A stretch of DNA of 64,000 bases from a bacterium (GTDB lineage: Bacteria; Verrucomicrobiota; Verrucomicrobiia; Limisphaerales; UBA11358). Below the pieces are notes generated by a model. The model worked only from the letters and a program-made list of their open reading frames with translations. It made no database searches and had not been told where the DNA came from. The stretch is taken from contig JAKAFL010000012.1 in NCBI GenBank assembly GCA_021817945.1, positions 1 through 64,000 of the forward strand, in the 5' to 3' direction. Position numbers and translations under genes: made by a program. How positions within the stretch are numbered: position 1 is the first letter of the stretch; every line of letters starts with the position of its first letter. Of this stretch, positions 5,079 to 31,861 are shown piece after piece.

Positions 5079-6170
5079 TTATCGGTTTAAAAAGGGATAG
5101 TCGGTATATCCCTTGGCCCCCGGCGCATAAAACGTGGCCGGGTCCGGTGAATTGAGCTGGGCGTTCAGTCTGAAACGTTCCGGCAGGTCTGGGTTGGCAA
5201 TGAACGGCACCCCATAAGCCACGGCATCCGCTTCCCCGGCGGCCAGCGTCTGGCTGCCCGTGGCGAGGGTGAATTTTTCATTGGCAATGTATGTCCCGCC
5301 AAATAGCGCCTTCAACTTGGGGCCAATCCGGTTTTCCCCCAATGATTCACGGGCACAAATGAATGCAATCCTCCGGCGCTTCAACTCCTGGGCCACGTGG
5401 CCAAATACGGCCAGCGGATCAGAATCTCCCATGTCATGGGCATCACCGCGCGGTGCCAGGTGCATGCCCACACGGTCCGAACCCCAAACCGACACCACCG
5501 CATCGGTCACTTCCAGCATCAGGCGCGCACGGTTTTCAATCGAGCCTCCGTATTCATCCGTTCGATGGTTCGTCTTGTCCTGGAGGAATTGGTCCAGCAG
5601 GTAACCATTGGCGCCATGAATCTCCACCCCGTCAAAACCAGCCAATTGCGCGTTTTCGGCGCCTTTGCGGTAGGCCTCCACCACCCCCGGAATTTCCCGG
5701 GTTTCCAAGGCCCGTGGTGTCACAAACGGTTTGAGCGGTCGAACCAGGCTCACATGACCCGCCGCCGCAATCGCGCTGGGCGCCACCGGCAATGCCCCGT
5801 TTAAAAACATCGGATCGGAAATGCGGCCAACGTGCCACAATTGCAGGAGCATGCGCCCGCCCGCCCGGTGTACGGCTTCCGTCACTCCCCGCCACCCGGC
5901 CACCTGTTCCGCAGACCAAATGCCGGGTGTCCCTGCGTAGCCCACACCCATGGGGGTGACCGATGTGGCTTCTGAAATTATCAAGCCAGCCGATGCCCTC
6001 TGCACATAATACTCCGCCATCAACGCATTCGGCACCCGGCTCTCACCCGCCCGCGAACGGGTCAGCGGAGCCATGAGGATGCGGTTGGGCAGATGCCAGG
6101 CCCCAATTTGAATGGGGGAATGCAGGGTGGGAATTTTCGTTGCGCTTTGCGGTTCAGTTTCTCTCAACAT
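5079..6170 (-). CDS. nemA: Old-yellow-enzyme family alkene reductase / N-ethylmaleimide reductase
   Basis: NRILMAPLTRSRA ... HGANGYLLDQFLQDKTNHRTDEYGGSIENRARL ... YGVPFIANPDLPERFRLNAQLN. Confidence 0.9.
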   Translation of the reverse strand: MLRETEPQSATKIPTLHSPIQIGAWHLPNRILMAPLTRSRAGESRVPNALMAEYYVQRASAGLIISEATSVTPMGVGYAGTPGIWSAEQVAGWRGVTEAVHRAGGRMLLQLWHVGRISDPMFLNGALPVAPSAIAAAGHVSLVRPLKPFVTPRALETREIPGVVEAYRKGAENAQLAGFDGVEIHGANGYLLDQFLQDKTNHRTDEYGGSIENRARLMLEVTDAVVSVWGSDRVGMHLAPRGDAHDMGDSDPLAVFGHVAQELKRRRIAFICARESLGENRIGPKLKALFGGTYIANEKFTLATGSQTLAAGEADAVAYGVPFIANPDLPERFRLNAQLNSPDPATFYAPGAKGYTDYPFLNR

Positions 6171-6328
6171 CCCGCCAGCCTAGCCCAAACCCAATTGAGA
6201 ATCAAACATGGTTGAAACTCAGCGATTCAAAAACAAGCTCGCGTCAAGCAGGGCAAGTTCATCACGGAATAAATCCTTGAGCCTGCCCCCGTGTTGACTT
6301 TTGACCTTTTGGACGGGACATTTCCCGG

Positions 6329-6868
6329 GTGAAATTGCCTTACAAAGCAGCCACCTTGCTTTATGTGTTCAATGCCGCCGATCAGGTTCTCCTTTTGGAG
6401 CGGGCGCGGCATCCCAATCAGGGTCTCTGGAGTCCGCCGGGAGGCAAACTTAAAATGGAAATTGGCGAATCCCCTTACGCCTGCGCCTGCCGTGAGGCCG
6501 GCGAGGAAATGGGCTTGAATTTATCCCCTGCGGATGTCCATCTTTCGGGAATTGTCAGTGAAGCCGGGTACCAGGGAGAGACCCACTGGCTGATGTTCCT
6601 TTTTGAAATCCGGCGGAAATTAACCCATGCGCCCCCTGTGCACGCGGAAGGGCGGTTCGCCTTTTTCAACCGGAAAGACTTGGAATCCCTCAGGATTCCC
6701 GATACGGACCGGGATAAAATCTGGCCTTGGTTCTGGCATTATCGTGGCGGATTTTTTGCCGCCCATTGCCAGTGTCGGGCCGATGGCGGCCATCTTTGGT
6801 CGCTGCACGAGGCGCGTGGTGCGGATGGGGTGGCTTCCCGGTCATGCGTGGGGGTGGCTCATGAATGA
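6329..6868 (+). CDS. Nudix hydrolase
   Basis: Nudix box GGKLKMEIGESPYACACREAGEEMGL. Confidence 0.85.
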   Translation: MKLPYKAATLLYVFNAADQVLLLERARHPNQGLWSPPGGKLKMEIGESPYACACREAGEEMGLNLSPADVHLSGIVSEAGYQGETHWLMFLFEIRRKLTHAPPVHAEGRFAFFNRKDLESLRIPDTDRDKIWPWFWHYRGGFFAAHCQCRADGGHLWSLHEARGADGVASRSCVGVAHE

Positions 6869-7361
6869 GGGGTTGATGGGTTTGCGCAGTGACGAGGATT
6901 TCATGAGGGAAGCGTTGCGGCAGGCGGCCAAGGCTTACGCGGCAGGCGAGGTGCCGGTGGGGGCGATTGTGGTGCGCGACGGCAGGATGATTGGCCGGGC
7001 TTTCAACCAGGTGGAGAGCCTGAAGGATGCCACGGCTCATGCTGAGATGCTGGCTCTCACCCAGGCCCAGCAGGCAGCGGGGGATTGGCGCCTTACGGAT
7101 TGCACGCTTTACGTCACCAAGGAACCCTGCCCCATGTGCGCCGGTGCCATTGTCCATACCCGCCTTCTGCGTGTGGTGTTTGGCGTGGAGGATCCCAAGG
7201 CTGGCGCCGCAGGCGGAGCCATGAACCTGTTGCAGTTTCCCACCCTCAACCATTCCTGCCAATTCACAGGCGGGGTGTGCCGGGAGGAATGCCGGTCCAT
7301 TCTGCGGGAATTTTTTGGCGAACAACGAAAGTTGAAACAAGGCAGATTACCTCCCGCCTGA
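6861..7361 (+). CDS. tadA: tRNA-specific adenosine deaminase TadA
   Basis: HAEM ... PCPMCAGAI zinc motifs. ATG 6861 overlaps the upstream Nudix stop. Confidence 0.9.
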   Translation: MNEGLMGLRSDEDFMREALRQAAKAYAAGEVPVGAIVVRDGRMIGRAFNQVESLKDATAHAEMLALTQAQQAAGDWRLTDCTLYVTKEPCPMCAGAIVHTRLLRVVFGVEDPKAGAAGGAMNLLQFPTLNHSCQFTGGVCREECRSILREFFGEQRKLKQGRLPPA

Positions 7362-11376: not shown

Positions 11377-12645
11377 ATGCCGCAGTTTTCTTACAAGGCA
11401 CGCAAACGGACCGGGGAGATGGTGGAAGGAGTGCTGGATGCCGCGGACCGCAGCGCCGCCCTGGTCCAGATTCAAAGGTTTGGCCTTTTTCCGATGGCGG
11501 TGGATGTGCCCCGGGCAGGGGCGGCGGTGGAAACCAAATCCACCAGCCAAAGCATCAATCTCAAGGCTTTTCTTCCCCCCTCCATCCAGGCCCAACTCTC
11601 CCAACAACGCCGCCCCAAACTCCAGGAATTGGCCACTTTCACCACCCAGCTTGCCAATCTCCTCAATTCCGGCATGGCCCTCACCGTGGCTCTCACCAGC
11701 ATGAGCCACCTTCAGACCAAAGGCATCCCCGCCTCTGTCAGCCAGTCCCTCAAGCAGGAAGTCACCGAGGGCCGCTCCCTCTCGGATGCCATGGCCCGCC
11801 AGCCTCGCATCTTTTCAGATCTGTACATCAACATGGTCAGGGCCGGCGAATCTTCCGGCTCGCTCGTCCAGGTTCTCCGGCGCATGGCCACCCATTTCCA
11901 GCAATTCGCCGATATCCAGGCCAAATTCAAATCCGCCATGATCTATCCCGTCATGGTCATTTGCGTCGGCATCCTGCTGGTGATCTTTTTCATGACGTTC
12001 ATGATGCCCAAGTTCATCGAGATTTTTAACGGCTTCAACGTCGAGCTGCCCCTCCCCACGCGCATCCTCATTGGCACCAGCAATGTTTTCACCCATTGGT
12101 GGTGGCTCGCGGTGCCGGTGATCCTGTCCATCGTGGTCCTGTTCAAGCGGTTCCAGTCCAGCAAGGCAGGAGGGCGCAAGCTGGATGAATGGCGCATGTC
12201 CGCCCCTGTTTTCGGCAATGTCATCAAAATCAATCTGTTCGGCCAGTTCGCCCGTACTCTCGGCACCCTCCTCCAAAATGGCGTGCCGGTCCTGACCGCG
12301 CTCAAAATCACCGAGCAGGTCATCCCCAATGTCCTCATCAAGGAAGCCATCTCCAACACCCGCGACGCCGTCACGGATGGAAAAACCCTCGCCCAACCCC
12401 TGGCCCGCAGCAAATTGTTTCCCCAACTCATGGTGGACCTGGTTCGAATAGGCGAGGACACGGGCGACGTGCCCGGTGCGCTCAACAACCTCGCCGACAC
12501 CTACGAAAACGAACTCCAGATTGCCCTGCGCGTGATGAGCGATCTCATCGGGCCCGTGCTGATTATTGTCATGGCCATCGTGGTGGGTTTCCTCCTGTTG
12601 AGCATCTTCCTGCCCCTGTTCAAGTTGATTTCCTCCATCCATTAA
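11377..12645 (+). CDS. gspF: Type II secretion system F family protein
   Basis: MPQFSYKARKRTGEMVEGVLDA...; LASLLNSG-like and MVRAGESSG / MVRIGEDTG duplicated GspF motifs; C-terminal TM. Confidence 0.92.
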   Translation: MPQFSYKARKRTGEMVEGVLDAADRSAALVQIQRFGLFPMAVDVPRAGAAVETKSTSQSINLKAFLPPSIQAQLSQQRRPKLQELATFTTQLANLLNSGMALTVALTSMSHLQTKGIPASVSQSLKQEVTEGRSLSDAMARQPRIFSDLYINMVRAGESSGSLVQVLRRMATHFQQFADIQAKFKSAMIYPVMVICVGILLVIFFMTFMMPKFIEIFNGFNVELPLPTRILIGTSNVFTHWWWLAVPVILSIVVLFKRFQSSKAGGRKLDEWRMSAPVFGNVIKINLFGQFARTLGTLLQNGVPVLTALKITEQVIPNVLIKEAISNTRDAVTDGKTLAQPLARSKLFPQLMVDLVRIGEDTGDVPGALNNLADTYENELQIALRVMSDLIGPVLIIVMAIVVGFLLLSIFLPLFKLISSIH

Positions 12646-12651
12646 AGCTGC

Positions 12652-13164
12652 ATGATGCGAAAACTTCTTTCGCGATCCGGCGGCATTCACGCCGCCCGGA
12701 AGGCTGGCTATACCTTGATTGAACTCATGGTGGTGGTGGCCATCATTGGCATGATCGCCGCCATGGGCTTGCCCGCCCTTGACCGCATGCTGGTCAAGCG
12801 GGGCATGCGCAAGGCAGTGAGTGATTTCTCGGAGGCCTGCCAGAGCGCCCGCGCGCGCGCCATTTTTTCCGGCCACACCGTCGCCGTCGTCCTCCGCCCG
12901 GCCGATGGCGCGTTTGCCGTGGATGGAGGTGGATCCTCCTTTGGCTCCCCCTACGTGTCTTCCGGCCACTTCACCGATGGCGTGACGGTGGATGCTTTCG
13001 GCATTAATTCACTCGATTTCACCGAGTCCGATTTCGGCCGCGTTTATTTTTACGCCGATGGCACCAGTGATGAAATGGTCCTGGTGCTGCGCGGGGATGG
13101 CCAGGAGGAAAAAATCACCTTGGAATATGCCACCGGGTTTCCCGTGGTGACCGACCTGAAGTGA
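12652..13164 (+). CDS. gspH: Prepilin-type GspH-like pseudopilin
   Basis: GYTLIELMVVVAIIGMIAAMGLPAL prepilin N-terminal signal. Confidence 0.8.
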   Translation: MMRKLLSRSGGIHAARKAGYTLIELMVVVAIIGMIAAMGLPALDRMLVKRGMRKAVSDFSEACQSARARAIFSGHTVAVVLRPADGAFAVDGGGSSFGSPYVSSGHFTDGVTVDAFGINSLDFTESDFGRVYFYADGTSDEMVLVLRGDGQEEKITLEYATGFPVVTDLK

Positions 13165-13174
13165 GCCATCCCAA

Positions 13175-13600
13175 ATGAAATCCTGCCAACCCAAAGCGGC
13201 CCGCCGTGGTTTTTCCCTACTCGAGGTCATGGTGGCTGTCGCCGTTTTTTTTGTGGGTTCCTTTGCCATTCTCTCTCTTGTCTCCCAGTCCCTCTCCAAT
13301 GCCCAGCGGATGAAGCGCCCCCTTGTGGATGCCAGCGCCATTCTTTCCCAAATCTCCCTCACCAACCAGGTTATCGAGGGGGATTACTCGGGAAACCTTG
13401 GAGATGTCATGGGCAAGGATTACGACCAGTTCAACTGGCAGGGCGCCATCACCGAGATTCGCTCCAACCACCTCTACAGCGCCGACTTCTTTATCTTTGA
13501 CCGCAGAAACCCGCGCCAGCCTGTGGCCCAGACTTCCACACTGTTTTTCCGGCCCCAATCGCCGCCCGGCAGTATGGATGGGGGCAATTTCACCCGATGA
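13175..13600 (+). CDS. gspI: Prepilin-type GspI-like pseudopilin
   Basis: GFSLLEVMVAVAVFFVGSFAIL prepilin signal; position between H and J. Confidence 0.75.
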   Translation: MKSCQPKAARRGFSLLEVMVAVAVFFVGSFAILSLVSQSLSNAQRMKRPLVDASAILSQISLTNQVIEGDYSGNLGDVMGKDYDQFNWQGAITEIRSNHLYSADFFIFDRRNPRQPVAQTSTLFFRPQSPPGSMDGGNFTR

Positions 13601-14407: not shown

Positions 14408-15550
14408 GTGAACCACCCTTTCAAGCGCCCCTCAATCACGCCGCAGGCAAACGACGTTTGCATCAGGCTGGCAAACCCTCCCCGGCGCCAATCAGGGTTT
14501 GCCGTGGTGGCCGCCCTGGTTGCGGTGGTGGTGCTCACCGTCCTGGCGGGGGGCTTCGCCTATTCCATGAAGGTGGAAACGCGCCTCGAGGCAAACGCCA
14601 ACAACGAGGAACAAATGCTCTGGCTCGGACGCGCCGGCGTGGAACTGGCGCGCTACGTCCTCACCATCGAGGGCCAGCAGCCTTACGATTCACTTGCGCA
14701 AATATGGGCTGGCGGCCCCGGGATCGGACCTGAAACCAACAGTCCCCTGATGGGGTTGTCGCTGGATAACTATCCTGTCGGCCTGCCTAATCCAATCGGG
14801 ACAGTCTCCCTGAAAATCATTGACCTTGAGCGCAAAATCAACATCAACACGGCGCAATCCCCGTTGCTGCAGCAGGTGTTCAATACTATGGGCGTGGATG
14901 CCAATGATATTTCCGTGCTATCCGATTCCATCCAGGACTGGATTGATCCGGATGACGCCACCCGTCCCGCCGGGGCGGAGAGTGATTATTATCAGGGATT
15001 GAACCCGCCCTACTATGCCAAAAACGGCCCCATGGATGATTTGTCCGAGTTGCTTCTGGTGAAGGGCGTGACGCCTGCCATGTATTTTGGAACGCCAGGT
15101 GGCGGCCAGGGAGCCAGCCCCTTCCCTCATCACCAGCTTGGTTTCAATAACTCCGCCTCCAGCCAGAATCCAGATTACGCCTTTGGATTCACCAATGTGT
15201 TCACCCCATTCTCCTCCGGCAAAATCAATATCAACACCGCGGACCTGACTGTCTTACAACTCATACCCGGCATGGATACCACCAGCGCCCAGAACCTGCT
15301 CAAGTTCCGGGCCGGGCCTGATGGCGTGGACGGCACGGATGATGATACGCCCTTTGTGAGCGTGGGGCAGCTTGCCGCGGCGGGTGTGGCGCCGCAAGCC
15401 GCCGCGCAGGTGGCCCAGTATTGCACCACCAAAAGCACCACCTTTGAAGTCCACGTCGCCGCCCGCATCGGCAATCAGGAACGGGACTTCGTGGCCATCA
15501 TCTTCCGAAACGGCCCCACCACCCAGGTGGTGCGATTTTACTGGGAATGA
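14408..15550 (+). CDS. gspK: GspK-like minor pseudopilin
   Basis: GFAVVAALVAVVVLTVLAGG N-terminus; ERKININTAQ and KININTADL motifs. GTG start inferred; the ORF-track start at 13601 is a spurious extension through gspJ. Confidence 0.82.
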   Translation: MNHPFKRPSITPQANDVCIRLANPPRRQSGFAVVAALVAVVVLTVLAGGFAYSMKVETRLEANANNEEQMLWLGRAGVELARYVLTIEGQQPYDSLAQIWAGGPGIGPETNSPLMGLSLDNYPVGLPNPIGTVSLKIIDLERKININTAQSPLLQQVFNTMGVDANDISVLSDSIQDWIDPDDATRPAGAESDYYQGLNPPYYAKNGPMDDLSELLLVKGVTPAMYFGTPGGGQGASPFPHHQLGFNNSASSQNPDYAFGFTNVFTPFSSGKININTADLTVLQLIPGMDTTSAQNLLKFRAGPDGVDGTDDDTPFVSVGQLAAAGVAPQAAAQVAQYCTTKSTTFEVHVAARIGNQERDFVAIIFRNGPTTQVVRFYWE

Positions 15551-15573
15551 AGGGGCGGAGTTTGCACAAAAAT

Positions 15574-15855
15574 GGCGCATCTCAGTTTTTAGCCCGGTAA
15601 AGTTGACGGAGAGGGAGAGAAGCGGTGATGGGTTTGCGAGGGTTTTTATGATTTTAACCCGAAAAGCGAAATTCAAAGGGCCAGTCTGCGCCAATCTACT
15701 GGGCGCAAATACTTATCTCACCAGACCGCTTCGGATATGGTTTGGATTTTTCCAAAGATTTTCCGCTCCAACATCTTGCGGCATCTTGACCTTTTGAATT
15801 TCGTTTTTCGGGTTTATACGCCGGGGGCGACCTGCTCAAAAACTGAGATGCGCCC
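15574..15855. repeat. Family-2 element (short form) interrupted by a family-1 element
   Basis: Left TIR GGCGCATCTCAGTTTTTAG and right TIR CTCAAAAACTGAGATGCGCC match the family-2 ends at 7885 and 8239. Confidence 0.65.
15655..15815. repeat. Family-1 palindromic repeat, copy C (long form, core inverted relative to B/D)
   Basis: TAACCCGAAAAGCGAAATTCAAAGG ... CCTTTTGAATTTCGTTTTTCGGGTT; the internal core is the reverse complement of copies B and D. Confidence 0.85.
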
Positions 15856-17009: not shown

Positions 17010-17210
17010 GGCCAAACAACTCAAAACCAAACTGTCGAAGGACAGTCGTGCCCTTCGCGCGCGACCACCCGGTGCTTCAACGTATCCCAATTCTGGGGCT
17101 ACGTGGATACACGTATTTCGTTTGAACATGATAAGCTAGTACACTCTTGAAGGTCAAATCATTTTATGGCCTTTCACGCAAAAACGCGTGGGTTTTCAGA
17201 AGGAAGACTT

Positions 17211-20200
17211 ATGATCGGAAAATTCACATGCATTCAAGGGGTGTTTCTCTCCATCGCCCTGTCTCTCATCAAACTGCATGCCAGCGAGATGCCATCTCTT
17301 GCCCGGGCTGCATTGCCGCTTGCCTTTGAATTGAACCGTGGCCAGGCGGGACCTGCCGCTGAGTTCCTTGCTCGCGGTGAAGGTTACTCGTTGTGCTTAT
17401 CAGCAGGCGGCGGGGCGATGCTGCATCTCTCATCCAAAAACCATGATTCCCGCCATGACGCAGAACTTGGATTAAGCCTTGAGTCTGCCCGGGTTGACTC
17501 TGTTGGTATGGGAGAAAAAGAATTGGAGGGCAGGGTCAGTTATCTCGTTGGCGCAGATCCGGCAAAATGGCGGCAGGGAATGCCAACGTTTGGGCGGGTG
17601 GAATTTAAATCCGTGTATCCAGGGGTGGACCTGACCTATTATGGGAATCAAGGCCGGTTGGAATACGATTTCCGGCTGGCACCCGGGGTCAAGCCCGGGC
17701 AAATCACCCTGAAATTCGACGGCCCGGAGGGAGTGGCTCTTGCAGATAATGGCGACCTGAATATCCAACTGGCTGGCGGCCTGGTACGGTGGCAACATCC
17801 GGTAGCATGGCAGGAGATTGACGGTCAAAAGGTTAGGGTTCCATGCCAATATGTCTTGGAGGAGCGGTTTGGAGGAAACAATGGCCACGAGATTGTGCGT
17901 TTCAGTCTGGGGAATTACAATTGTTCCGAGCCTCTGGTGATTGACCCGGTGCTGCTTTATTCAACCTATTTGGGCGGATCCAGTTCAGGCGGCGACAGTG
18001 CCAACGCCGTCACCACCGATGCGGCAGGCAATGTGTATTTCACCGGCACAGATTCCAGCGGCACGTTCGCTTTCCCAGCAGTGCGGGGATTTTTAGATGC
18101 CGGTGGCAATGCTGCTTTTGTCACCAAACTGGATTCGACAGGCACAAACGCATTGTTCACGACCTTCATTGGCGGCAGTGGCAACGATTCCGGCCAGGCA
18201 ATTGCGCTGGATAGCACGGGCCACATCTTCTTAGCCGGGAATGCCTCGCCTGGATTTCCGATTACAAACGGATTTCAAACTGCCAGCGCCAACGGATTTC
18301 TCGCTGAACTGGACACAAGCGGAACGAACATCCTCTACTCGACTTACATTGGTGATTCTGTCAATAGCTTGGGTGTGGATGGCAGTGGCCACGCCATCGT
18401 CGCAGGCGTGACCAGTCTTGCGAGTTTTCCGGTAACCCCGGGAGTGTTGCGCACCAACGCGCCGAACGGGGGGTCGCCGTGTGGCTTTGTCGTGAAAGTC
18501 AACCCAACGTTGAGCGGCACGAATTCTTTAGTGTACTCGACGTTGTTCGGCGGGTCGGGTTACGACGGAATTCAAGCCTTGGCGGTGGATGCGTCCGGGA
18601 ATGCATATTTCACGGGCACAGCCACTTCGACCAATTTTCCCGTCACCCCTGGCGCTTTTCAGACGAACCGGCTTGGTTATTCTGACGCTTATGTTGCCGA
18701 GTTGAATCCCACCGGCACAGCGCTGGTGTTTTCCACCCTGCTGGGCGGCAGTGGCAATGACGGTTACAATACCGCCGGTATTGCGTTGGATGCTGATGGC
18801 AACGTGTATGTGACCGGGCAGACCGATTCCAAGGATTTTCCGACCACGCCTGGCGCCGCGCAGCCGACGTTTGGCGGCGGCGGACCGTATTCCAACAGCG
18901 GCGACGCCTTTGTGGCCAAATTCAATCCCACCGGCAGCACATTGCTCTGGTCAACGTATCTGGGCGGCAGCCTGGACGACAATGCCACGGGCATCACCGT
19001 GGATTCCAACCGCAACGTGTATGTGACCGGCGACACCAGTTCGCTGAATTTTCCGACGCGTCAGGCGGCGCAAACGCCGAATCTGTTTGACGCCTATAAA
19101 TTCGCGGCCGGCGCGACAAACTGGACCGGACTGGCCGTAGGTCCACAAACCATCAACGTATTTGCCGTGGATCCCGTGAACAGCTCGAATGTTTATGCCG
19201 GTGCGACGCGCGGTGGCAGCGAGCCGGTGTTCTATAAAAGTGCCGATGGCGGGCTGACTTGGACTGGCAGTGACACGGGAATGCCGGCGAATTTCTCCGT
19301 CTATAACGGCTTCAGCTACGACACGATTCAGGCCAGCGTCAAATCCCTGACGGTGGATCCGTCAAATCCAAACGTACTCTATGCCGGATTTAGTTCCGGC
19401 GCGGGCATTTTAAAAAGCACCAACAGTGGCGGGAGTTGGTTCGCCGTCACCAATGGCCTGCCTCAGCTTTTTTTTGCGGGCGGAGGAGGTGCCGGAGGAA
19501 GGGTGATCGGTGCGCTGGCGGTTGATCCGCATGATTCACAGGTAGTCTTTGCCGCGTTGGGGGCCATGAATAACAGTGCGGGCGGGATTTTCCGCAGTGC
19601 CGATGGCGGACAGACTTGGAGCAATGTGCTGGCGGGCGCCACCGGTTCAGTTGGATTTGTTGCGGTGGATATTGACTCGTCGGATTCATCGAAAATCTAC
19701 GCAGCCAGCAGCAGTCAAGTCGGCTTTTTCAAAAGTACCGATGGCGGGAACACCTGGACTAATTTGAACACCGGCCTGCCCTCGTCAGATTCAGTGCAAA
19801 CCATCGCCATTAACCCGGCCAATTCGGACAACATTTATGTGGGAACCTTTGCCAGCGGCATTTATGAAAGCCTGAACGGTGGCACAAACTGGCTGGTCAC
19901 CGGGCAAAACTTCTATGGCGTTCCCAGTCTTGCATTCAATCCATCGGACCCCAATACGCTCTACGGACTCGAGGTGTATGGAGGCTACGACTATCAAGGC
20001 GTGATCGTTTCCACCAACGCCGGCACGAACTGGACCAGCATGGATACCGGAATCCCTTCCCAAAACAACCAGTATCGGATCAGTTCACTGACGGCAGATC
20101 CGTTGCAGGCCGGAACGCTTTTTGCCGCCTCCAGCGAATATCTCCAGGAAGGCTTTGTCGCCAAGTTGGATGCCAGCGGGTCGTTGCTCAATTACGCCAC

Positions 20201-23200
20201 CTACCTGGGCGGCGTCACGGGTACTTACAATCAACGCGCCAATAACAACGCCGACGGCATTGCCGTGGATGGCACCGGTAATGTCTGGGTGGTGGGCAAC
20301 ACCGCCGCAGCGGATTTCCCGGTGACAACGAACGCCTATCAGCAAATGTATTACGGCAACCAAAGTGCGTTCATTGCCAAACTCGGCAGTTCCTCCGACG
20401 CTGACCTGGCTGTCTTCCTGTCCGAAAGAACCAACACCATACAGGTGAACCAAGCCTTCAGTTATACGGTTGTTGTCACAAACATGGGACCGGGCGACGC
20501 GTCCGCCGTCACGCTGGAGGATGTTTTGCCCTCATCGCTTGCCTTTCAGTCTGCATCCATGCCCCAAGGCTCTTACCAGGTGGCCGGCCAAACAGTGACC
20601 TTCAATTTGGGCGCGGTGTCCAATCAAACCTCAGCCACGGTGGTTCTCACCGCGGTTCCGGTGGCCGTCGGAACGGCTCAAAATGTGGTCAGTGTCACCG
20701 CAAATGAAAATGATCCGGTACTTTCCAATAACATTGCCTCCATCTCAACCACGGTTTTGCAAAATGCCGCACTGCATACCGATCTGGCCTTGGGCACCAT
20801 AATCTCGCCCAATCCGGGGATTCTGGGTTACAATTTGAGTTACTCGGTGAGTGTCACCAACCTTGGACCGGACTCTGCAAGTGGTGTGACCTTGACCGAT
20901 GCGATTCCTTCAACCGTGACGTTGATTTCCGCCGTTGTCAGTCAGGGGTCTTTGATGCAGTTGGGAAAAAATCTGACGGCGGCTTTTGGGAATCTTGCCT
21001 CCGGTGCAATCGCTTCTCTCACTATCACCGCTACTCCGCGATCACGCGGCATGATTACCAATTTTGCAGGTGTCACCGGCAATGAAAATGATCCGAACCC
21101 GGCCAATAATTTCGCCGCCTCCGCCACGCAAATCATTGCGGCAGATTTGCAGGTCATCCGCTCGGGTCCGGTGCCGGAGCAGTCAGACCAAAGTTTCACC
21201 ATGCTTGTCACTAATGTCGGTCCCGACACCGTCGCCAACACTGTGCTGACCATTGCGTCGCCTGACGGGACCAATACGGTCGTGGAATCGGCCGCTGCCA
21301 GCCAGGGTTCGGCGGTTATTTCCAATAATTTTGTCGTTGCATCGCTTGGCGCCATTCCTCCAGGGGGCGGCGCTGCGGTCCGCGTTTCCGCATCAGGCCC
21401 GGCAAACGTCACTGCCTATACCTTTGTTTCTCCAGTCAGCTCTTCCGGGGTGGTTTTGTTCACGCAAACCAACAGCACAGCGGCTGATCTGATGGTCATG
21501 GGTGGCTCTGTAAGTCCAAATCCTATCGTGGCAGGCCAGGTGGTCACCATTTCTGGTTTGGTCACCAATGCCGGGCCTGATGTGGCTAAAAATGTCTCCA
21601 TCTTTTTTGGATTGGATTCTGGCGCATTCAACTTGATTTCAATGAGCGGGTCTGGTTCCACGAATGACTTTTACAACGGATCAGTGCTTTACGCGCAGGA
21701 CGTGTTCCCGGAGATTAGTCCGGGAGGCACCGCTCAATTTACGGTGCAAGCCCAGCCATTCAATGCAGTGAATGAGTCCGTCATCTTCGCCGCAGACTCA
21801 GACCAGCCCGATCCCACGCCTTGGGACAACAGTATTTACAATTTTTACGAGTACACCAATTGGCTGCACATCACGGTGACGAATGGACCGGGGGTCTTGT
21901 CGTTTGCCCAGGCCGGCTTCACCGCTGCAGAAAACTCCGGCGGCGCATCCATACAAGTCAGCCGCAAAGGAGGCAGCGCTGGCACCGTGAGTGTCAATTA
22001 CGCCACGACCGGCGGAAGCGCCAAATCTGGGGTGAACTATACCCCTGTCAGCGGCACGCTCACCTTCGGGCCGGGCCAGAATGTCGCGAGTTTTTCCGTG
22101 CCGCTGCTGGATGATGGCGTGCTTTCGCCCAACATGTCTGTGAACTTGTTGTTGAGCGGCGTAACCGGCGGGTACATGGGCGTGCCTGGGGCTGCGACTC
22201 TGACAATTGATGAATCGGATTTTTCCACGAATCTCCCAGGCGGCCTGGACCTCATTAGTGCGGCAATCACCAACAGCCCGCTGATTTATGGCAATAATCC
22301 CGACCAGGGGGGGACACCTGGAGTTGTTGCGCTCACGCCGGATGGCCGCCATGTCTTGTTCAATTCCATTGCCAATAACCTTGTCAACGGCATCAATAAC
22401 TCCTACTACACCGGCTACCAGTACGTGCAGCAGCGCAACGTGTTTGTGCGTGACATGAACACCAATTTTGTGACCTTGGTAAATGTGACGACGACTGGCA
22501 GTTCCTGCAATTCGGGTGCCTACGGCGATTCCATCACGCCGGACGGTCGCTACGTGGTTTTTGAAAGCTCGGCCACCGACCTGACCGAAGGCAACCTTGG
22601 CGGCTTTAATCAAATCTTCCTACGCGATTTGGTTTCCGGGCAAACCAGGTTGATCAGTGTGGATTCCAGTGGCGCCGTCGGCGCAGCCGGTTATTCCTAT
22701 GGCGGGCAAATCTCGCAAGACGGCCGCTATGTGTTTTTCACCAGCTACGCCACGAATTTGGCTGGGCAAATTGAGACTGGCCACGGCGACGTTTTCATGC
22801 GTGACACATGGAGCAACCTCACCACACTGGTGAGCATCAGCACAAACGGCTTGACCGGCAACGGTTCGGGATCTTATTTGGATGCCATCACGCCGGATGG
22901 CCGCTTCGTGGTGTTTGACAGTTACTCCAGCGACCTGTCGCCTGTGCCAGCCACAAACGGCGTGGATAACCTCTTTTTGCGCGATACACTTTCCAATAGG
23001 ACCTGGTTGTTGACGGTGAATCCCTCCGGCACGCAATCAGCCAGCGATTATTCCTACTCGCCCGTCATCACCCCCGATGGTGGTTTTGTGGCTTTCATCA
23101 GCTATGCCACCAACCTGACATCAGATGTCATCACCAATGGAGCCCGGAATATTTTCCTGCGCAATGTGAATGCTGGCAGCACCATTCTGGTGAGCGTGGG

Positions 23201-25760
23201 AACAAATGGACTGGCCGGCGATAAAAATTCCTCCTCACCAACCATCAGTTCCAATGCGCAGTTTGTGGCTTTTGTGAGCGGGGCAGGGAATCTTTCTCCG
23301 CTTGCCTCCGGAATTGCCAACCAGCAGGTTTTCATACGTGACATGGTGAGCCAGACAAACAGGTTGGTGAGCGTGGATGTTGCCGGCACAAATGCCGCGA
23401 ATGGTTATGCCCATAATCCAAATTTGACGCCGGATGGCCGGTTCGTGGTTTTTGACAGCGTCGCAACCGACATTGTGACCAATTCTGATTTCGGCTACGA
23501 CAATGTCTTTGAGTTGGATTTGTTTTCCAACGCCATGATCATGGTCAGCACAAATTCCAGTGGCAAAGCCAGCTTGGGCGCAAACCAGCAGACGGTCACT
23601 CCGGATGGAAAGGACGTGGTCTTTGTAAGCTCCGATTACAGTTTGGCGCCCGGCGCGCCCTACAATACCGGAGAAATTTACCGGGCGAATCCTTTTGCGG
23701 GCGGCATTGGCGGCATGATGCCGGTGAGCGCCGTATTCTCGCGCACGGCCAACAACAATTCGCCAGCCACTGCCTACTCAATGAGCGCCAATGGGCGCTG
23801 GGTTGTCTTCGATAGCTATGCGCTTAACCTTGTGCAGAACCAGACCAATGGCAATGGAAGCATCTTCCTGGCCGATACCCTCAGCAACACCCTGACCCTT
23901 CTGAACCTGAGCACAAACGGCGGATTACCCATGTATTATTCCGCTTACGGGCCCCAGATCAGCGCAAATGGCAACGTGGTGGCTTTCAACAGCTCTGCTT
24001 CCGATCTGGTTACCAACCCGGTCAACGATGCCTACAACAACAACGTGTTCGCCTGCAACCTGACCAACCACACCATGAATCTTGTCAGTGTCAACCTTGC
24101 TGGCGGGAGCGACAACGGTAGTTCTTCTTTGGTCGGTCTTTCTCCTGACGGACGTTACATTTTGTTCACCAGCTATGCCACGAATTTGACGGTGGCGGCT
24201 CTCACCAATAGTTATTGGCAGCATTTGTACGTTCGTGACCTGCTGCAAGGCACGACCACGATGGTGGATGTCACCACCAATGGCTTTCCGGGTGACAGCG
24301 ATGCCGGCACCGGGTCCATCACTCCGGACGGACGCTTTGTGGCTTTCACCAGCGCCTCGGATTGGCTCGTTACCGGCGTGTCCAATGTGACCGGCAGTTT
24401 CCAGGATTATCAAATGTTCCGGCATGATATGTGGTCCGGCAGCAACGTGCTCGTCAGCGCCACCCCGTCCGGCGGCCCAACAACCAACGAGTTCGGCATT
24501 TATTACGCGCAACCCCTCATCAGTTCGGATGGCCGTTATGTCGCATTTGAATCATCATCCTCCGATTTGATCTACGGCAGCACCAATTTGTTCAGCCAGG
24601 TTTATGAACGGGACATTCTTTCAGGTGAAACCCATCTGGTCAGTGTCAATCTCGCCGGCACAAGCGGCGGAAATAATTACGCCAGCGGCACGCCAGCCAT
24701 GACCCCGGACGGGCGTTTCATCGTGTTTGCCAGTTACGCCAGCGATTTGACCGCCAATACAGGCGAGAATGGGATTGAAAATGTGTTCGTGCGCGACATG
24801 GTGAATAACACGACCACCCTCGTCAGTATCAACGACCTCGGGGTTGGCGGTGCCAATGCGGCGTCCGACTCCTTTGCCATCAGCAGTGATGGCCGCTACG
24901 TCGCGTTCCGAAGCTTTGCCACCGATTTGGTGCCTGGCGCATTTGCCTCCGGCGTTGGGAATATTTACCGGCGGGACTTGTCGAATGACGTGACGCTCCT
25001 GATCAGCGGCAACCTCGCCGGCACCGGCTCAGGTTCGGCAACTTCCGAGAGCCCCGCCATGAGTGTTGATGGCTCGCTAATCGCGTTTGATAGCTCTGCC
25101 TACGATCTCACTCCCCAGGATTTTAACCAGGCCAACGACCTGTTCGTATATGGCTTCAAACCCGTTGCCAATACCGCTGATTTGGCTCTTGGCGCCGCCG
25201 CGCCTGTTTCCGCCAGCGTTGGTAATTCATTCAACCTGGTTTTGAGCGTGACAAATCTCGGCCCAACCAATGCCACCGGTGTGGTGGTGCTGGATAAACT
25301 GCCTCCCGGAGTGGTTTTTGTTTCGGCGCATTCTAGTCAGGGGACGCCGGTTTTCGCTGGAGGCCAGGTCGCATGGTCTCCGGGCGGCTTGGCTGCAGGC
25401 GGTGAAGCCACAGCCACCCTCACTCTGACCCCCACCCTGGCGGGAATCATTTACAACGACGCGACCGTGTCTGGCAATCAACCCGACTTGAATCCTTACA
25501 ATAACGGCGTGCAAACCTCGGTCTCGGTCAGTGCGGGTGGCCCTCCTTCTCTGGCCATCGCCGGTTTGTCCGGTAACAGGTTCCAAATCTCCTGGCCATC
25601 GTCGGCGAATTTGGAATTGCAGACCACCACCAATCTGGCCCCGCCCATCATCTGGCTGCCAGTCACTAATGGAATTGCCACGGGCGGCGGGGTCAGCTCC
25701 GCAGTTTACACCAATCTTCCGCACGGTGGAAATCGCTTCTACCGTCTGCACGCCCCGTGA
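17211..25760 (+). CDS. Giant secreted multidomain protein: DUF7948/SBBP propeller, BNR-like repeats, DUF11 repeats, Calx-beta, PD40/TolB-like propeller repeats
   Basis: [11 protein letters not shown] ... [19 protein letters not shown] ... [10 protein letters not shown] repeats; [10 protein letters not shown] (BNR); [43 protein letters not shown] (DUF11); [23 protein letters not shown] (Calx-beta); many [16 protein letters not shown] repeats. Confidence 0.9.
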
Positions 25761-25878: not shown

Positions 25879-27405
25879 ATGCTTTCAAAGGTTTGCTCGG
25901 CTGCGCTCAATGGCATTGATGCCTATGCCGTTGAGGTGGAGGTGAATTGCGGTTATGGCGAGACTTTCGTGGCCCTCGTGGGCCTGCCCGATGCCGCTGT
26001 CAAGGAATCCAAGGACCGCGTTTCCACCGCCCTCTCCAACTCCGGCTACACCTTTCCCATGGGCAAAACCACCATCAACCTGGCTCCTGCAGACATGAAA
26101 AAAGAGGGGCCAAGCTTCGACCTGCCCATCGCCCTGGGCTTGCTGGCCGCCAGCGAACAAATGGTCACTGACCAACTCGACCAGTTTGTGATCGTGGGGG
26201 AATTGGCCCTCACCGGCAGCGTGCGCCCGGTCAAGGGTGTCCTTTCCATTGCACTCAGGGCCAGGGCCGATGGCCGCGCCGGTGTGCTTGTGCCGGTGGA
26301 AAATGCCGCCGAAGCCGCCGTGGTCCGCGGACTCAATGTCATCCCCGTCCAAAATTTGCGCGAGGCGGCATCCTTCCTGGAAGGCGAGGCCCGCATCACC
26401 CCCGCCAAAGTGGATCTTCAGGCGCTGTTCGCCCCTGTCCCCGCTGAAGACCATGATTTCAGCGAGGTCAAGGGCCAGGAAAACGTGAAGCGTGCCCTGG
26501 AGATTGCCGCCGCAGGCGGCCACAATGCCCTGCTCATTGGTCCCCCGGGTACCGGTAAATCCATGCTCGCCCGCCGCCTGGCCACCATTTTGCCCCCGCT
26601 CACCCTGGACGAAGCCCTGGAAACCACCAAGGTCCACAGTATCGTGGGACTCCTGCAACCCGGCCAGGCCCTTGTCACCCAGCGACCTTTTCGTTCGCCC
26701 CACCACACCGCCAGCGATGCCGGCCTCCTCGGCGGCAATGTCAACCCCACCCCGGGCGAAATTTCCCTGGCCCACAACGGTGTCCTTTTCCTCGATGAAT
26801 TGCCCGAATTCAAACGCAGCGTGCTCGAAACCATGCGCCAGCCCCTGGAAGAAGGCCGCGTCACCATCTCCCGCGCCGCTGGCACCATGACTTTCCCCTC
26901 CCAGTTCATGCTCCTCGCCGCCATGAACCCCACGCCCGATGGCAAAATGCCCGCAGAGTCGCGCAGTTCACCCCGGGAAATTCAAAATTACCTGGGGCGC
27001 ATCTCCGGTCCGCTCCTCGACCGCATAGACCTCCACATCGAAGTGCCCGCCGTCAAATTCCGTGAAATGGCCGCCGCGCCCCCGGGCGAAACCTCAGCAC
27101 AAATCCGCGAGCGCGTCATCGCCGCCCGGTCCCTCCAGCACGCCCGGTTCGCCGCCAAACCCAAAATCACCTGCAACGCCCGCATGGGATCCCGCGAACT
27201 CAAGGCTCACTGCGCCATGGATGATGCCACCGCCTCACTGCTCAAGCACGCCATGACCGAGTACAATTTGAGCGCCCGCGCCTACGATCGCATCCTGAAA
27301 GTCGCCCGCACCATTGCCGACCTCGCCGGCGTCGAGAACATCAACCCCGACCACATCAGCGAAGCCATCCAATACCGCTCCCTCGACCGCCAGTTGTGGG
27401 GGTGA
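25879..27405 (+). CDS. comM: YifB/ComM family Mg-chelatase-like AAA+ ATPase
   Basis: [22 protein letters not shown]...[14 protein letters not shown]; Walker [27 protein letters not shown]. Confidence 0.92.
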
Positions 27406-27501
27406 TGCGGAATAAAACAATCTGCTTTCCCTTGATGCTGTCTCCCGATACTTCTTGGAAAACCGTTGGCGTCCTCTTAATCTCGTGGGACAGTAGTTTA
27501 G

Positions 27502-28641
27502 ATGAAAAAACCGGCCTTCATAGACCTATTTTGCGGCTGCGGAGGATTCAGCCTTGGCATGGAGCGCGCCGGCTTCCGTTGCTTGGCGGCGGTTGATTTC
27601 AACCCCGAAGCCGTCACCGTTTTCAGAAAAAACTTCCCTGAAATTTGCCAGGCCCTCGAAAAGGATTTAATTCAATTCACGCCTGACAAAATGGCGGAGC
27701 TCATCGGCGACGAAACGGTGGATGTCATTGTCGGCGGTCCGCCGTGTCAGGGATATTCAACCGTGCGGCAGCGAGATGGCGCGAACAGCGGGCCGCGCAT
27801 GGTTGAAGACAAGCGCCGGCATCTTTACCAGGAATTTTTGCGTTACGTCGGTTATTTCCAGCCGAAATTGTTCGTGATGGAAAATGTTTTGGGCATCAAA
27901 TCGGCGGCGGGTGGAAAATACTTCACGCGCGTCCAGAAGGAGGCGCGGGCATTGGGATATCGTGTCCATCCGCAGGTTGAAAAGGCATTTGACTTGGGCG
28001 TGCCGCAGAAACGCCAGCGCCAACTCATCATCGGCACACGCCTTGACTTGCCGGATTACTTTCCAGGGGACTTGAAACCCGCACCCCGCGCCGTGGAATG
28101 GCCGACGCTCGGCGAAGCCATTGGCGACCTTCCCACCGTCTGGGCCGGTGGCGGCGAAGAAGAGGCTGATTACGACATGGAGAAACGCAAAAGCCACGTT
28201 GCCAAATACAGCCGGGGTTATCTCTATGGAACGCTCGAAGTGCAGCTTGCACAAAAACTGACGGCGCACCGTGCCCGTCCCCACAGCGAACGCGACTTGC
28301 GCGATTTTGCCAAATTGCGCGAGGGCGAGCATTGTGCGGCGGCAATCAAGCGCGGCGAGGAATTCGAGTTTCCCTACGACCGCGAATCTTTCAAAGACCG
28401 TTACACCCGGCAGCATCGCAACGAACCCTGCTCAACCATCGTGGCTCATTTGAGCAAAGACGGTCTGATGTTTATTCATCCGACGCAAAACCGCTCGCTT
28501 ACGCCGCGCGAGGCGGCTCGTGTGCAGAGTTTTCCCGATTGGTTTCAATTTCCGGTGGCTCGCACACATCGGTTCCGCGTCATCGGGAATGCCGTTCCTC
28601 CGCTTGTTCTTGAAGCCATCAGAAATCTCGCGTTCAACTGA
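27502..28641 (+). CDS. DNA (cytosine-5-)-methyltransferase
   Basis: Motifs FIDLFCGCGGFSLGM (I), GGPPCQGYS (IV), FVMENV (VI), QKRQRQLIIGTR (VIII), REAARVQSFPDWF (IX), IGNAVPP (X). Confidence 0.95.
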   Translation: MKKPAFIDLFCGCGGFSLGMERAGFRCLAAVDFNPEAVTVFRKNFPEICQALEKDLIQFTPDKMAELIGDETVDVIVGGPPCQGYSTVRQRDGANSGPRMVEDKRRHLYQEFLRYVGYFQPKLFVMENVLGIKSAAGGKYFTRVQKEARALGYRVHPQVEKAFDLGVPQKRQRQLIIGTRLDLPDYFPGDLKPAPRAVEWPTLGEAIGDLPTVWAGGGEEEADYDMEKRKSHVAKYSRGYLYGTLEVQLAQKLTAHRARPHSERDLRDFAKLREGEHCAAAIKRGEEFEFPYDRESFKDRYTRQHRNEPCSTIVAHLSKDGLMFIHPTQNRSLTPREAARVQSFPDWFQFPVARTHRFRVIGNAVPPLVLEAIRNLAFN

Positions 28642-28650
28642 AATAAATCC

Positions 28651-28908
28651 ATGTGGACAATCACAAATGATTTAGTTGATGGCGGCAAAAAAGTTGGCGC
28701 GTCGAGTTGCACCTTCGATGCAACACAAGCTGTCTCGCTGAAGCACCGATTCCGTTTGCTGGACGATGATGGTAATATTTATTACGAGGGGATTTCCGAC
28801 GTTCACGATTCGCAAAAAGCCTTTTCCCCGCTTGATGATTTTGGACGGGGTTACGCCGGTTGCACGCAAATCGAATACTTCACCAATGGTGCTTGGCGTT
28901 CGCTGTAA
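28651..28908 (+). CDS. 85-aa protein of unknown function
   Basis: ATG 10 nt after the MTase stop; coherent sequence HRFRLLDDDGNIYYEGISDVHDSQKAFSPLDDFGRGYAGCTQIEYFTNGAWRSL. Confidence 0.6.
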   Translation: MWTITNDLVDGGKKVGASSCTFDATQAVSLKHRFRLLDDDGNIYYEGISDVHDSQKAFSPLDDFGRGYAGCTQIEYFTNGAWRSL

Positions 28909-28911
28909 AAT

Positions 28912-29760
28912 TTAGCGCGGCAGCGCCGAAAATTGCATTGGGTCGAGGGTGCAGGTATTGCGAAGTGAGCCGGGCAGAATAAAAAGTTGTGGCTGCTGGG
29001 AAAATTTGTAAAGCCGGTAAAGTTGATATTCATTTTGCCGCTCTTCAGAAATCTGAACTTCATTTTTTGATGCAAAAAACGGAGTCATCGCGCCGAAGCG
29101 CGTGGTCTTAACTTCAATCAGCCGGACGCGACCATCTATCTCGAACGATGAAATATCAAAGCCAAGATGGTCGCCGGTTGTGTCAGAGACGTGTTGGATT
29201 CGGTTGGCTAAATCTTTCTTCCCAGCTTGCCAAAGTCGCTTGTATTCAAATTCCAAAACCAATCTTTCTCCAGCCAATCCTAAAGTTTGATTTCGTGCTT
29301 CAAGCTCTAGATAATTTCTCCGCACCGGCTTGCGAATTCGCTGAGCTTCGTCGTGAAGTTTTGTTTTTTTCGTTTCACTGCGCGGCGGCGCGACCAAAAT
29401 CGCCAACACATCGCTGACTTCCGGCGGGTGCTGGACGGTCTGCCCAACCGCAGTTGCCGCCGCTTGATGCAAACTACCAGCACCGAGAAGCCGTTCCTCA
29501 ACCACGTCGTAAAGAAGTCCCTGATAATTCAAGCGCGGCTTGTAGCCGTCAATGTAGGGATAGCCCAGGTCAGTCAGAACCGCGCTGATATTTTGATGCT
29601 TTAATTCAATCGCTGCTCTCGTTCGGCTTTTAAGAAAAATTTGCAGATTGCGATTGTGTTCTGCTTTGTTAAACGATTCGCCACGAAGTTCCATAGCCAG
29701 CATCCCGAAATAATCCAAGACGGTGGCTTCAACTTCTTCGCGTGACCAATAGTCTGACAT
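28912..29760 (-). CDS. DUF3883-like protein with a PD-(D/E)XK-like nuclease signature
   Basis: Start at MSDYWSREEVEATV. C-terminal DHLGFDISSFEIDGRVRLIEVKTTRFG...FFASKNEVQISEERQNEYQLYRLYKF (D...ExK pattern). Confidence 0.75.
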   Translation of the reverse strand: MSDYWSREEVEATVLDYFGMLAMELRGESFNKAEHNRNLQIFLKSRTRAAIELKHQNISAVLTDLGYPYIDGYKPRLNYQGLLYDVVEERLLGAGSLHQAAATAVGQTVQHPPEVSDVLAILVAPPRSETKKTKLHDEAQRIRKPVRRNYLELEARNQTLGLAGERLVLEFEYKRLWQAGKKDLANRIQHVSDTTGDHLGFDISSFEIDGRVRLIEVKTTRFGAMTPFFASKNEVQISEERQNEYQLYRLYKFSQQPQLFILPGSLRNTCTLDPMQFSALPR

Positions 29761-29914
29761 ATTTGATTTGTGCGACCCGCATCCAGGTTGTGCGAAAAAT
29801 TTGGACTCTGCACTAAAAAACTCGCTGAACGGCTTCCGTGCCAACGCGTCGCCGATGGCCGCGTTGCAAGGGACTTGAGCCGTTTGCCGCCTCAATCGGC
29901 GGCAGCACCCACTT

Positions 29915-30187
29915 TGGCGTGCCTTAAAAGAAGTGCGTTTCGCCGACGTGTTCACGGTACTCGCGCAATATTCGGATCGCGGTTATACCGTTCGCGTAAT
30001 CGGGTTTTTCAGGGTAGGCAAAAAATTTCCAAGCCTTGTTGAAGCCGATATGCTGCCGGGCGTTGGCGACGCCAACTATGCCTTGAGCGTGGCCGCGTAC
30101 GAGCTGTTCAGAATTCAGCCCAAAGAGGTTGAAACCACTGTCGCCGCCAGCTCGAAGCCCAATTTCAAAAGGAAAAACCGTTCCTGA
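29915..30187 (+). pseudogene. C-terminal remnant of a DUF4420 (PD-(D/E)XK motif) protein
   Basis: ALKEVRFADVFTVLAQYSDRGYTVRVIGFFRVGKKFPSLVEADMLPGVGDANYALSVAAYELFRI resembles the C-terminus recalled for DUF4420 proteins. No upstream body; the adjacent DNA is the divergent DUF3883 gene. Confidence 0.5.
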
Positions 30188-30188
30188 A

Positions 30189-30428
30189 TTGGATCAATTC
30201 GCCCAAGGCCTTCACCAAGAAGTGCAGGTGAAATGCGCAGACGACGCTTCGCTGCAAATGCGGGAGGACGCCTTTACCGAATGCGTCTTGGAACGGCTCG
30301 CCGAGCATAACGAGGCCGACAACGCAGAAATGATTTGTCCCAGCCTTCGTTGGGAATCGCGTGGACGCTTCCCCGCCGCGAAGATTAACGCATGGGCGTT
30401 GTCTGGTGACGGCGCGGTCAACCTGTAT
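30189..30428 (+). pseudogene. N-terminal remnant of an AIPR-family protein
   Basis: LDQFAQGLHQEVQVKCADDASLQMREDAFTECVLERLAEHNEADNAEMICPSLRWESRGRFPAAKINAWALSGDGAVNLY, then homology-like sequence stops. Confidence 0.6.
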
Positions 30429-30715
30429 TCGGAAAACCAGATTTCATTTTCCGCTCGGCAAGACTGGCGGTTTTTGTTGACGGCTGTTTCTGGCATGGTT
30501 GTCCCAAGCATTGCAAAATCCCAGTCGGCAATCGTGCATTCTGGAAGACGAAATTCGCTGCGAACAAGACCCGCGACCGCCGCGTTAACCGCGAGTTGCG
30601 AAAGCTCGGCTGGCGAGTCATTCGGATTTGGGAACACGACCTCGCCAAGCGCTGCGGGGCATGTGTTCGGAAGATTCAAGGCGCTACAAACTTATCGCCT
30701 TCGGGGTCCAGATAA
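30422..30715 (+). pseudogene. vsr: C-terminal remnant of a Vsr (very short patch repair) endonuclease
   Basis: In a different frame from the AIPR piece: PVFGKPDFIFRSARLAVFVDGCFWHGCPKHCKIPVGNRAFWKTKFAANKTRDRRVNRELRKLGWRVIRIWEHDLAKRCGACVRKIQ, stop TAA 30713. The Vsr N-terminus is missing. Confidence 0.8.
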
Positions 30716-30895
30716 CCGGCGGCGGCGAAACGTTTCACAATTTGCCGGAACCTGGGATCGGTGCTGTTCATAAAATTCTGAAAAGCGAACCGGTCGTCCT
30801 GTTTGGTCGTCACCACGGCCTTGGGGTTAAAATCATACAGTGCCGCCGGGAATTGAAAGAATCCGCAAACCGTCTTGCACTTCTGCGCGTACGCG

Positions 30896-31024
30896 ACCAA
30901 GCGTTACCTGCACCTGACAATTGCCGACTTGAAAGAGGCCCGTCGCCAGTTCCATCCGCGTGAACGGGACGAACAAGGCGAAGCGCTGACTAATCATGAA
31001 AAACCATCGCACTTGCCAAAATGA
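30896..31024 (+). pseudogene. Possible C-terminal tail of a tyrosine recombinase/integrase
   Basis: TKRYLHLTIADLKEARRQFHPRERDEQGEALTNHEKPSHLPK* resembles the (T)xRYxHxxxxxLxxxxxxxHPR tail of XerC/D-like integrases. Confidence 0.4.
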
Positions 31025-31049
31025 GCCAACTGGCCGATATTTTTGGTGC

Positions 31050-31295
31050 ATGAGCATTGCCGCCCAGACTGTGGCCGAAATGATGGCCTTGCCGGAACAA
31101 GACCGGGCATTCCTTGCCCGTCAACTCATTGCCAGCCTCGATGACACCGTGGACGCGGATGGTGAGGCGCAATGGAACGAAGTCATTGACCGCCGTTCCC
31201 GCGAGATTGAGGAAGGCAAAGTCAGTTGTCGCCCGGTGGAACAGGTTATTGGGGACATCCGGCAAAAACTCCATGCACGTCGTCAGCCATCCTGA
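31050..31295 (+). CDS. Addiction-module antitoxin
   Basis: MSIAAQTVAEMMALPEQDRAFLARQLIASLDD....AQWNEVIDRRSREIEEGKVSCRPVEQVIGDIRQKL. Confidence 0.85.
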   Translation: MSIAAQTVAEMMALPEQDRAFLARQLIASLDDTVDADGEAQWNEVIDRRSREIEEGKVSCRPVEQVIGDIRQKLHARRQPS

Positions 31296-31563
31296 AGCCG
31301 ACGAGGAACTGGAAGCGGCGGTGCTCTGGTATGAAGAAAGGCAGCCCGGCCTGGGCGGCGACTTCCTTGAACAATTTGAACTCACGCTGCGCCGCATCGT
31401 GGCCGAGCCGGAACGCTGGCGCAAAATCCGGGGCGAGAACCGCAAGCTCAACTTCCACCGCTTTCCCTACGCCATCGTTTACAGTGTGCAGGCCGACGCG
31501 CTTTTCGTCAAAGCCGTGATGCACCTGCACCGCCGGCCGCTCTACTGGAAAGGCCGCGTGTGA
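31273..31563 (+). CDS. RelE/ParE-family toxin
   Basis: MHVVSHPEADEELEAAVLWYEERQPGLGGDFLEQFELTLRRIVAEPERWRKIRG...FPYAIVYSVQADALFVKAVMHLHRRPLYWKGR; overlaps the antitoxin 3' end. Confidence 0.9.
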   Translation: MHVVSHPEADEELEAAVLWYEERQPGLGGDFLEQFELTLRRIVAEPERWRKIRGENRKLNFHRFPYAIVYSVQADALFVKAVMHLHRRPLYWKGRV

Positions 31564-31785: not shown

Positions 31786-31861
31786 GCTCCCGTAGCTCAA
31801 ATGGATAGAGCAGCAGTTTCCTAAACTGCCTATCACGGTTCAATTCCGTGCGGGGGCACCA
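31786..31861 (+). tRNA. tRNA-Arg (anticodon CCT), CCA encoded
   Basis: GCTCCCG/CGGGGGC acceptor, D-arm GCTC...GAGC, anticodon arm GCAGT TTCCTAA ACTGC, T-arm CACGG TTCAATT CCGTG, ACCA 3' end. Confidence 0.95.

Follow-up and report, generated by a model that had tools for sequence, protein, structure and literature searches.

Between a cytosine methyltransferase gene and a tRNA gene of a verrucomicrobial bacterium (Limisphaerales, UBA11358) lies a run of broken genes, which raises the question of whether a complete defence operon once stood here and what has become of its parts. The window analysed is a stretch of 64,000 nucleotides at the start of contig JAKAFL010000012.1 (assembly GCA_021817945.1). 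An earlier note, made from the sequence alone, had read three fragments within it as the tail of a DUF4420 gene, the head of an AIPR gene and the tail of a vsr gene, and all three are indeed present on the + strand, matched by PF14390, AIPR homologues and TIGR00632, respectively. We conclude with high confidence that the locus holds the degraded remains of an MZA-type defence operon, of the form cytosine methyltransferase, MORC/MzaB, Z1/MzaC, DUF4420/MzaD, AIPR/MzaE and Vsr. The features are listed below against the intact operon of a genome of the same genus, G430.

27502..28641, + strand: truncated C5 methyltransferase (379 aa); codons 1-373 homologous to the 537-aa methyltransferase of G430, last few codons from the insert
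28624..29829, no strand: insert in place of ~5069 bp of operon sequence; G+C 47.7% (window, 57%)
28651..28908, + strand: 85-aa ORF of unknown function in the insert; distant plasmid homologues, 40-56% identity
28912..29760, - strand: intact DUF3883/NOV_C protein, 282 aa; PADLOC PDC-S36, E 1e-103; PF13020, E 1e-20
29830..29972, + strand: internal piece of DUF4420, ~residues 56-105 of the G430 protein; 1-nt deletion near 29926
29973..30187, + strand: C-terminal piece of DUF4420; PF14390 264-305 of 306, E 4.8e-6; stop at 30185-30187
30189..30416, + strand: N-terminal piece of AIPR, first ~73-76 codons; TTG start at 30189
30407..30416, + strand: AIPR/Vsr junction of a 1932-bp deletion, from the G430 alignment; CGGCGCG at both ends
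30417..30690, + strand: C-terminal piece of Vsr, from codon ~41; TIGR00632 46-119, E 3e-26
30676..30899, - strand: 3' piece (residues 101-173) of a gene whose 174-aa product belongs to no known Pfam family; 5' part lost

The intact operon in related genomes

The operon of G430, at ~90% DNA identity to the window locus, runs C5 methyltransferase (537 aa), MORC-type HATPase, Z1, DUF4420, AIPR and Vsr, and the identical order is found intact in G402, of the same genus, and in G018, G141 and G010, of the same class. The earlier note had named a recurrent operon of these genes; the gene set stands, but its placement of Vsr after the methyltransferase does not, Vsr being the final gene of the intact operons, 3' of AIPR and not beside the methyltransferase. 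Since Vsr comes last in the relatives, the order of the remnants in the window is native and collinear, not rearranged, and one simple deletion explains the join of AIPR to Vsr. In G141, two more partial Vsr matches lie 3' of the intact gene (L011:3009-5530) and are apparently decayed duplicates.

The best profile matches of the G430 HATPase, Z1, DUF4420 and AIPR proteins are MzaB, MzaC, MzaD and MzaE, respectively (E 2e-134 for the HATPase against MzaB), with all scores below the NCBI equivalog cut-offs. The AIPR protein additionally matches PF10592 (E 1.6e-100) and PF22879, and the two remaining proteins match PF00145 and Vsr. Another degraded copy occurs in G295 (L012:9677-10291), where a DUF4420 tail and an AIPR head are all that is left and neither a methyltransferase nor Vsr lies nearby.

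Mapping the damage

Breaks were mapped by alignment of the window to G430 together with base-level views. Four blocks, all collinear and 77-95% identical, pair window positions 27256-28623, 29830-29980, 29973-30416 and 30407-30899 with positions 5888-7255, 12325-12476, 12973-13416 and 15339-15831 of G430. A degraded descendant should match an intact copy closely and in the same gene order, as the locus does here with its same-genus counterpart, and the alignment shows that an operon close to that of G430 was formerly present in the window. The decay proposed earlier, and the synteny with complete operons in related genomes by which it was to be checked, are thus both supported.

Homology to the methyltransferase stops at 28623 and homology to DUF4420 begins at ~29830. 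Where G430 has 5069 bp between these points, comprising the methyltransferase end, HATPase, Z1 and the first part of DUF4420, the window has 1206 bp, in agreement with the suggestion that the HATPase/Z1 section gave way to the DUF3883 gene. The DUF4420 tail was correctly placed with its stop at 30187, and its homology reaches further left, to ~29830. What survives of this gene carries a 1-nt deletion, and hence a frameshift, near 29926, and an in-frame deletion of 504 bp (168 codons) at 29973-29980, with TCGC common to both ends; the tail also matches MzaD weakly in profile searches. The AIPR head, likewise correctly assigned from ~30189, is by itself too short for a Pfam match, and its identity was therefore settled through relatives: its DNA is 95% identical to the G430 gene, and its product shares 45-47% identity with the N-terminal part of AIPR proteins of 686-690 aa in same-class genomes (E 1e-15). 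A plasmid search with this head gave no match. Of the proposed tandem fusion only one join is real. The border between DUF4420 and AIPR is the native gene border, and AIPR codon ~75 is joined to Vsr codon ~41 by a 1932-bp deletion removing the AIPR body and the Vsr head. This deletion had been anticipated, with the frame change put at ~30422-30430; the junction actually lies ~15 bp further left, at 30407-30416, where 7 bp (CGGCGCG) are common to both ends. The short sequences shared at the ends of the 504-bp and 1932-bp deletions suggest that both may be products of slippage or of microhomology-mediated end joining; the 4-bp match of TCGC is by itself weak evidence of mechanism.

The Vsr scrap retains the core KPDF and the zinc-ligand stretch GCFWHGCPKHC. 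It begins at profile position ~46, its N-terminal region gone, and has an in-frame TGA just upstream with no ATG, GTG or TTG ahead of the catalytic core. No other Vsr is found in the genome. Arrival of the scrap with the NOV_C insert was considered, as Vsr and NOV_C are divergent neighbours elsewhere, and was rejected because collinearity with the G430 operon extends over the scrap and on into the sequence downstream of it. The MzaB-like HATPase and MzaC-like Z1 genes are missing from the locus, DUF4420 is reduced to two fragments and AIPR to its first ~75 codons. Relocation of the lost genes within the genome was rejected for Z1, since no PF10593 match occurs anywhere in this 94.7%-complete assembly. 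Phage restriction by the system would have been lost.

Next to the Vsr scrap, the convergent remnant of the 174-aa gene has full-length homologues (loci L030, L190, L032 and L191) that are convergent to Vsr beside MZA-type operons in G430 and G420 and beside a DISARM-like operon in G422; in G408 the homologue lies near a weak methyltransferase match. At L032 (2397-14188), the same type of methyltransferase together with Vsr flanks a DISARM-like set (DrmE_C-like, NERD/helicase, helicase and MZB-domain proteins), so the methyltransferase-Vsr pair is common to different systems.

The surviving methyltransferase

The methyltransferase at 27502 was proposed as an intact survivor of the operon. It has survived, with 95.7% amino acid identity to the G430 enzyme over 373 residues, but it is not intact, the C-terminal ~160 aa being absent (379 aa against 537-572 aa). 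The catalytic domain is complete (PF00145 positions 3-319 of 324, E 4e-65; motifs I to X, with GNAVPP of motif X present) and dN/dS against G430 is 0.054.

Branch counts of synonymous to nonsynonymous changes, with G402 as outgroup, were 26:7 for the methyltransferase on the window branch and 35:9 on the G430 branch. The DUF4420 and AIPR scraps together gave 5:8 on the window branch, which differs from the methyltransferase (Fisher p 0.014) and from the ~6:0 of the same regions on the G430 branch (Fisher p 0.018), the sites being few, this grouping having been picked after the counts were seen, and changes from before and after decay being inseparable. The Vsr scrap is not relaxed (10:2), and all scraps pooled with Vsr included (15:10) do not differ from the methyltransferase (p 0.15). 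On these counts, constraint on the window branch seems to have eased for the DUF4420 and AIPR scraps. The complete catalytic domain and the constraint on its own branch make the methyltransferase probably an orphan survivor; one other C5 methyltransferase is present in the genome, on contig C88. The truncated enzyme would still methylate its cytosine motif, such that decay would have removed a costly, potentially self-harming nuclease/helicase arm and kept a harmless self-marking enzyme. Most of its substitutions may predate the decay, so that constraint is no proof of present activity, and the lost ~160-aa C-terminus could be essential.

The insert and its NOV_C gene

The 85-aa ORF of the insert has no homologue in 48 same-genus genomes. 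The NOV_C gene lies 270 bp from the methyltransferase in the opposite orientation, and its product has the D202...E216-x-K218 residues expected of a PD-(D/E)XK nuclease, invariant in 39 of 39 aligned homologues. The predicted model is confident (pLDDT 90.9); fold comparison gave no PDB match below E 0.001, and the NOV_C profile found nothing when run against PDB sequences. DUF3883 has been called a novel restriction endonuclease domain (PMC3710099) and a presumed type II restriction endonuclease (PMC10609329).

These properties give some room to a different account of the locus, in which NOV_C replaced the MORC-Z1-DUF4420-AIPR arm and the truncated methyltransferase and NOV_C form a restriction-modification pair, NOV_C cutting unmethylated DNA. 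Besides the intact ORF, its invariant residues and the published views of the domain, the neighbourhoods of NOV_C genes favour it. Across 84 NOV_C loci (788 kb), a C5 methyltransferase is nearby in 6 and Vsr in 10; 58 control loci have neither, save for the Vsr of G430 itself. In the phylum as a whole, 147 of 390 genomes have any Vsr, most often one or two copies each, so chance would place far fewer beside NOV_C. Locus L120 holds a tight methyltransferase-Vsr-NOV_C run, and in a Chloroflexi operon (L173:3604-10837) the order is C5 methyltransferase, NOV_C, Z1, DUF4420 and AIPR, with NOV_C in the usual MORC/HATPase slot. In several Verrucomicrobia the two genes are close divergent neighbours: Vsr is divergent from NOV_C within ~75 bp in L034 (7070-8428) and L103 (3545-4892) and close by in L112 (4655-5852). 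A NOV_C fragment also lies near Vsr in G023 (C9:295619-295864 and C9:296083-296439, respectively). Against this account, most NOV_C genes have no methyltransferase nearby, none is seen on the short contigs that carry the nearest homologues (L103-L105, at 67-77% identity), the gene is oriented opposite to the methyltransferase and the predicted fold lacks a significant PDB match. We therefore consider replacement of the arm by a cutting partner unlikely, though a working methyltransferase/NOV_C pair at this locus is possible. That the methyltransferase acquired a DUF3883 nuclease in exchange for its lost effector arm, with DUF3883 an interchangeable partner of such methyltransferases, is an equally unlikely reading, hinted at by the L173 operon. 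Decay of an MZA-type operon, leaving the methyltransferase behind, is the reading we prefer.

Flanks and possible transfer

The locus is flanked by comM and ruvC, which lie on separate contigs in those genomes of the genus that were examined, and the assembly is in 99 contigs; both would suit an artefact in which a draft metagenome-type assembly joined separate sequences. An artefact is nevertheless very improbable: the remnants follow the operon of one relative collinearly and with comparable identity, the DUF4420 deletion preserves the reading frame exactly, and at two of the junctions both ends share a short sequence, as is the case for genuine deletions. Least credible of all is a new functional chimeric gene joining the AIPR head to the Vsr core: the AIPR-frame ORF is open from 30129 to 30773, but past the junction it is out of the Vsr frame, which itself is closed by the TGA upstream and has no start codon ahead of the core, and the arrangement is found in no other genome.

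The operons of the window and G430 are ~90% identical, against ~70% for comM and ruvC, which points to transfer between lineages. G430 has its own comM, 72% identical to that of the window, and a stray comM 3' end adjoining its operon (L030:13870-14113) that is ~82% identical to the window comM, or 84% with the adjoining spacer included. This stray end, an apparent passenger of the transfer, lying in a genome with a comM of its own, suggests that the operon may have moved into the G430 lineage from a genome having it behind comM, the arrangement of the window. The G430 draft is 75% complete, and its operon contig could be a contaminant. On the left of comM the window contains a very long ORF (17166-25760, + strand; 2864 aa) with many repeated motifs, and between the broken operon and a tRNA-Arg gene (31786-31861) there is a toxin-antitoxin-like pair (30996-31563, + strand; PF09720 and ParE-like).

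Significance and relation to known systems

The locus provides a base-pair record of the decay of a multi-gene anti-phage system, covering the genes lost, the types of break and the gene retained, and it bears on the origin of orphan cytosine methyltransferases. In a 2026 study (PMC12907096) it is argued that solitary cytosine methyltransferases are stabilised by Vsr-like genes, and this genome is a test case: the methyltransferase is retained and an intact Vsr was not found in it. The locus is also suggestive about DUF3883, as the recurrence of NOV_C beside methyltransferase and Vsr genes offers a lead toward the function of this domain.

As a system, the locus is ordinary, a degraded member of an already known type and a well documented wreck. 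Its nearest named counterpart is MZA (mzaABCDE; NCBIfam NF041932-NF041935, PADLOC MzaB-E), on the strength of the best matches of the four central G430 proteins to MzaB-E. It differs in having a C5 methyltransferase and Vsr, the mzaA of MZA having been described as a sigma factor (PMC9523054), and in being broken in the window. The putative Z1 / PD-(D/E)XK / cytosine-methyltransferase system Type II of the same publication (PMC9523054) shares Z1, a PD-(D/E)XK DUF protein, a cytosine methyltransferase, AIPR and MORC; the operons of the relatives here additionally end in Vsr, and the window copy is without most genes. The PADLOC single-gene defence candidate PDC-S36, DUF3883 (NOV_C), is matched over its full length by the inserted gene, which, unlike that candidate, sits within a wrecked MZA-type operon adjoining a surviving methyltransferase. 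The MORC/paraMORC restriction-modification neighbourhoods of Iyer et al. 2008 (PMC2292703) likewise combine a GHKL ATPase, a distinct SFII helicase, a REase-fold protein, a cytosine methylase and Vsr-like genes; those operons were described as intact, whereas the present one is degraded and has a DUF3883 gene inserted into it.
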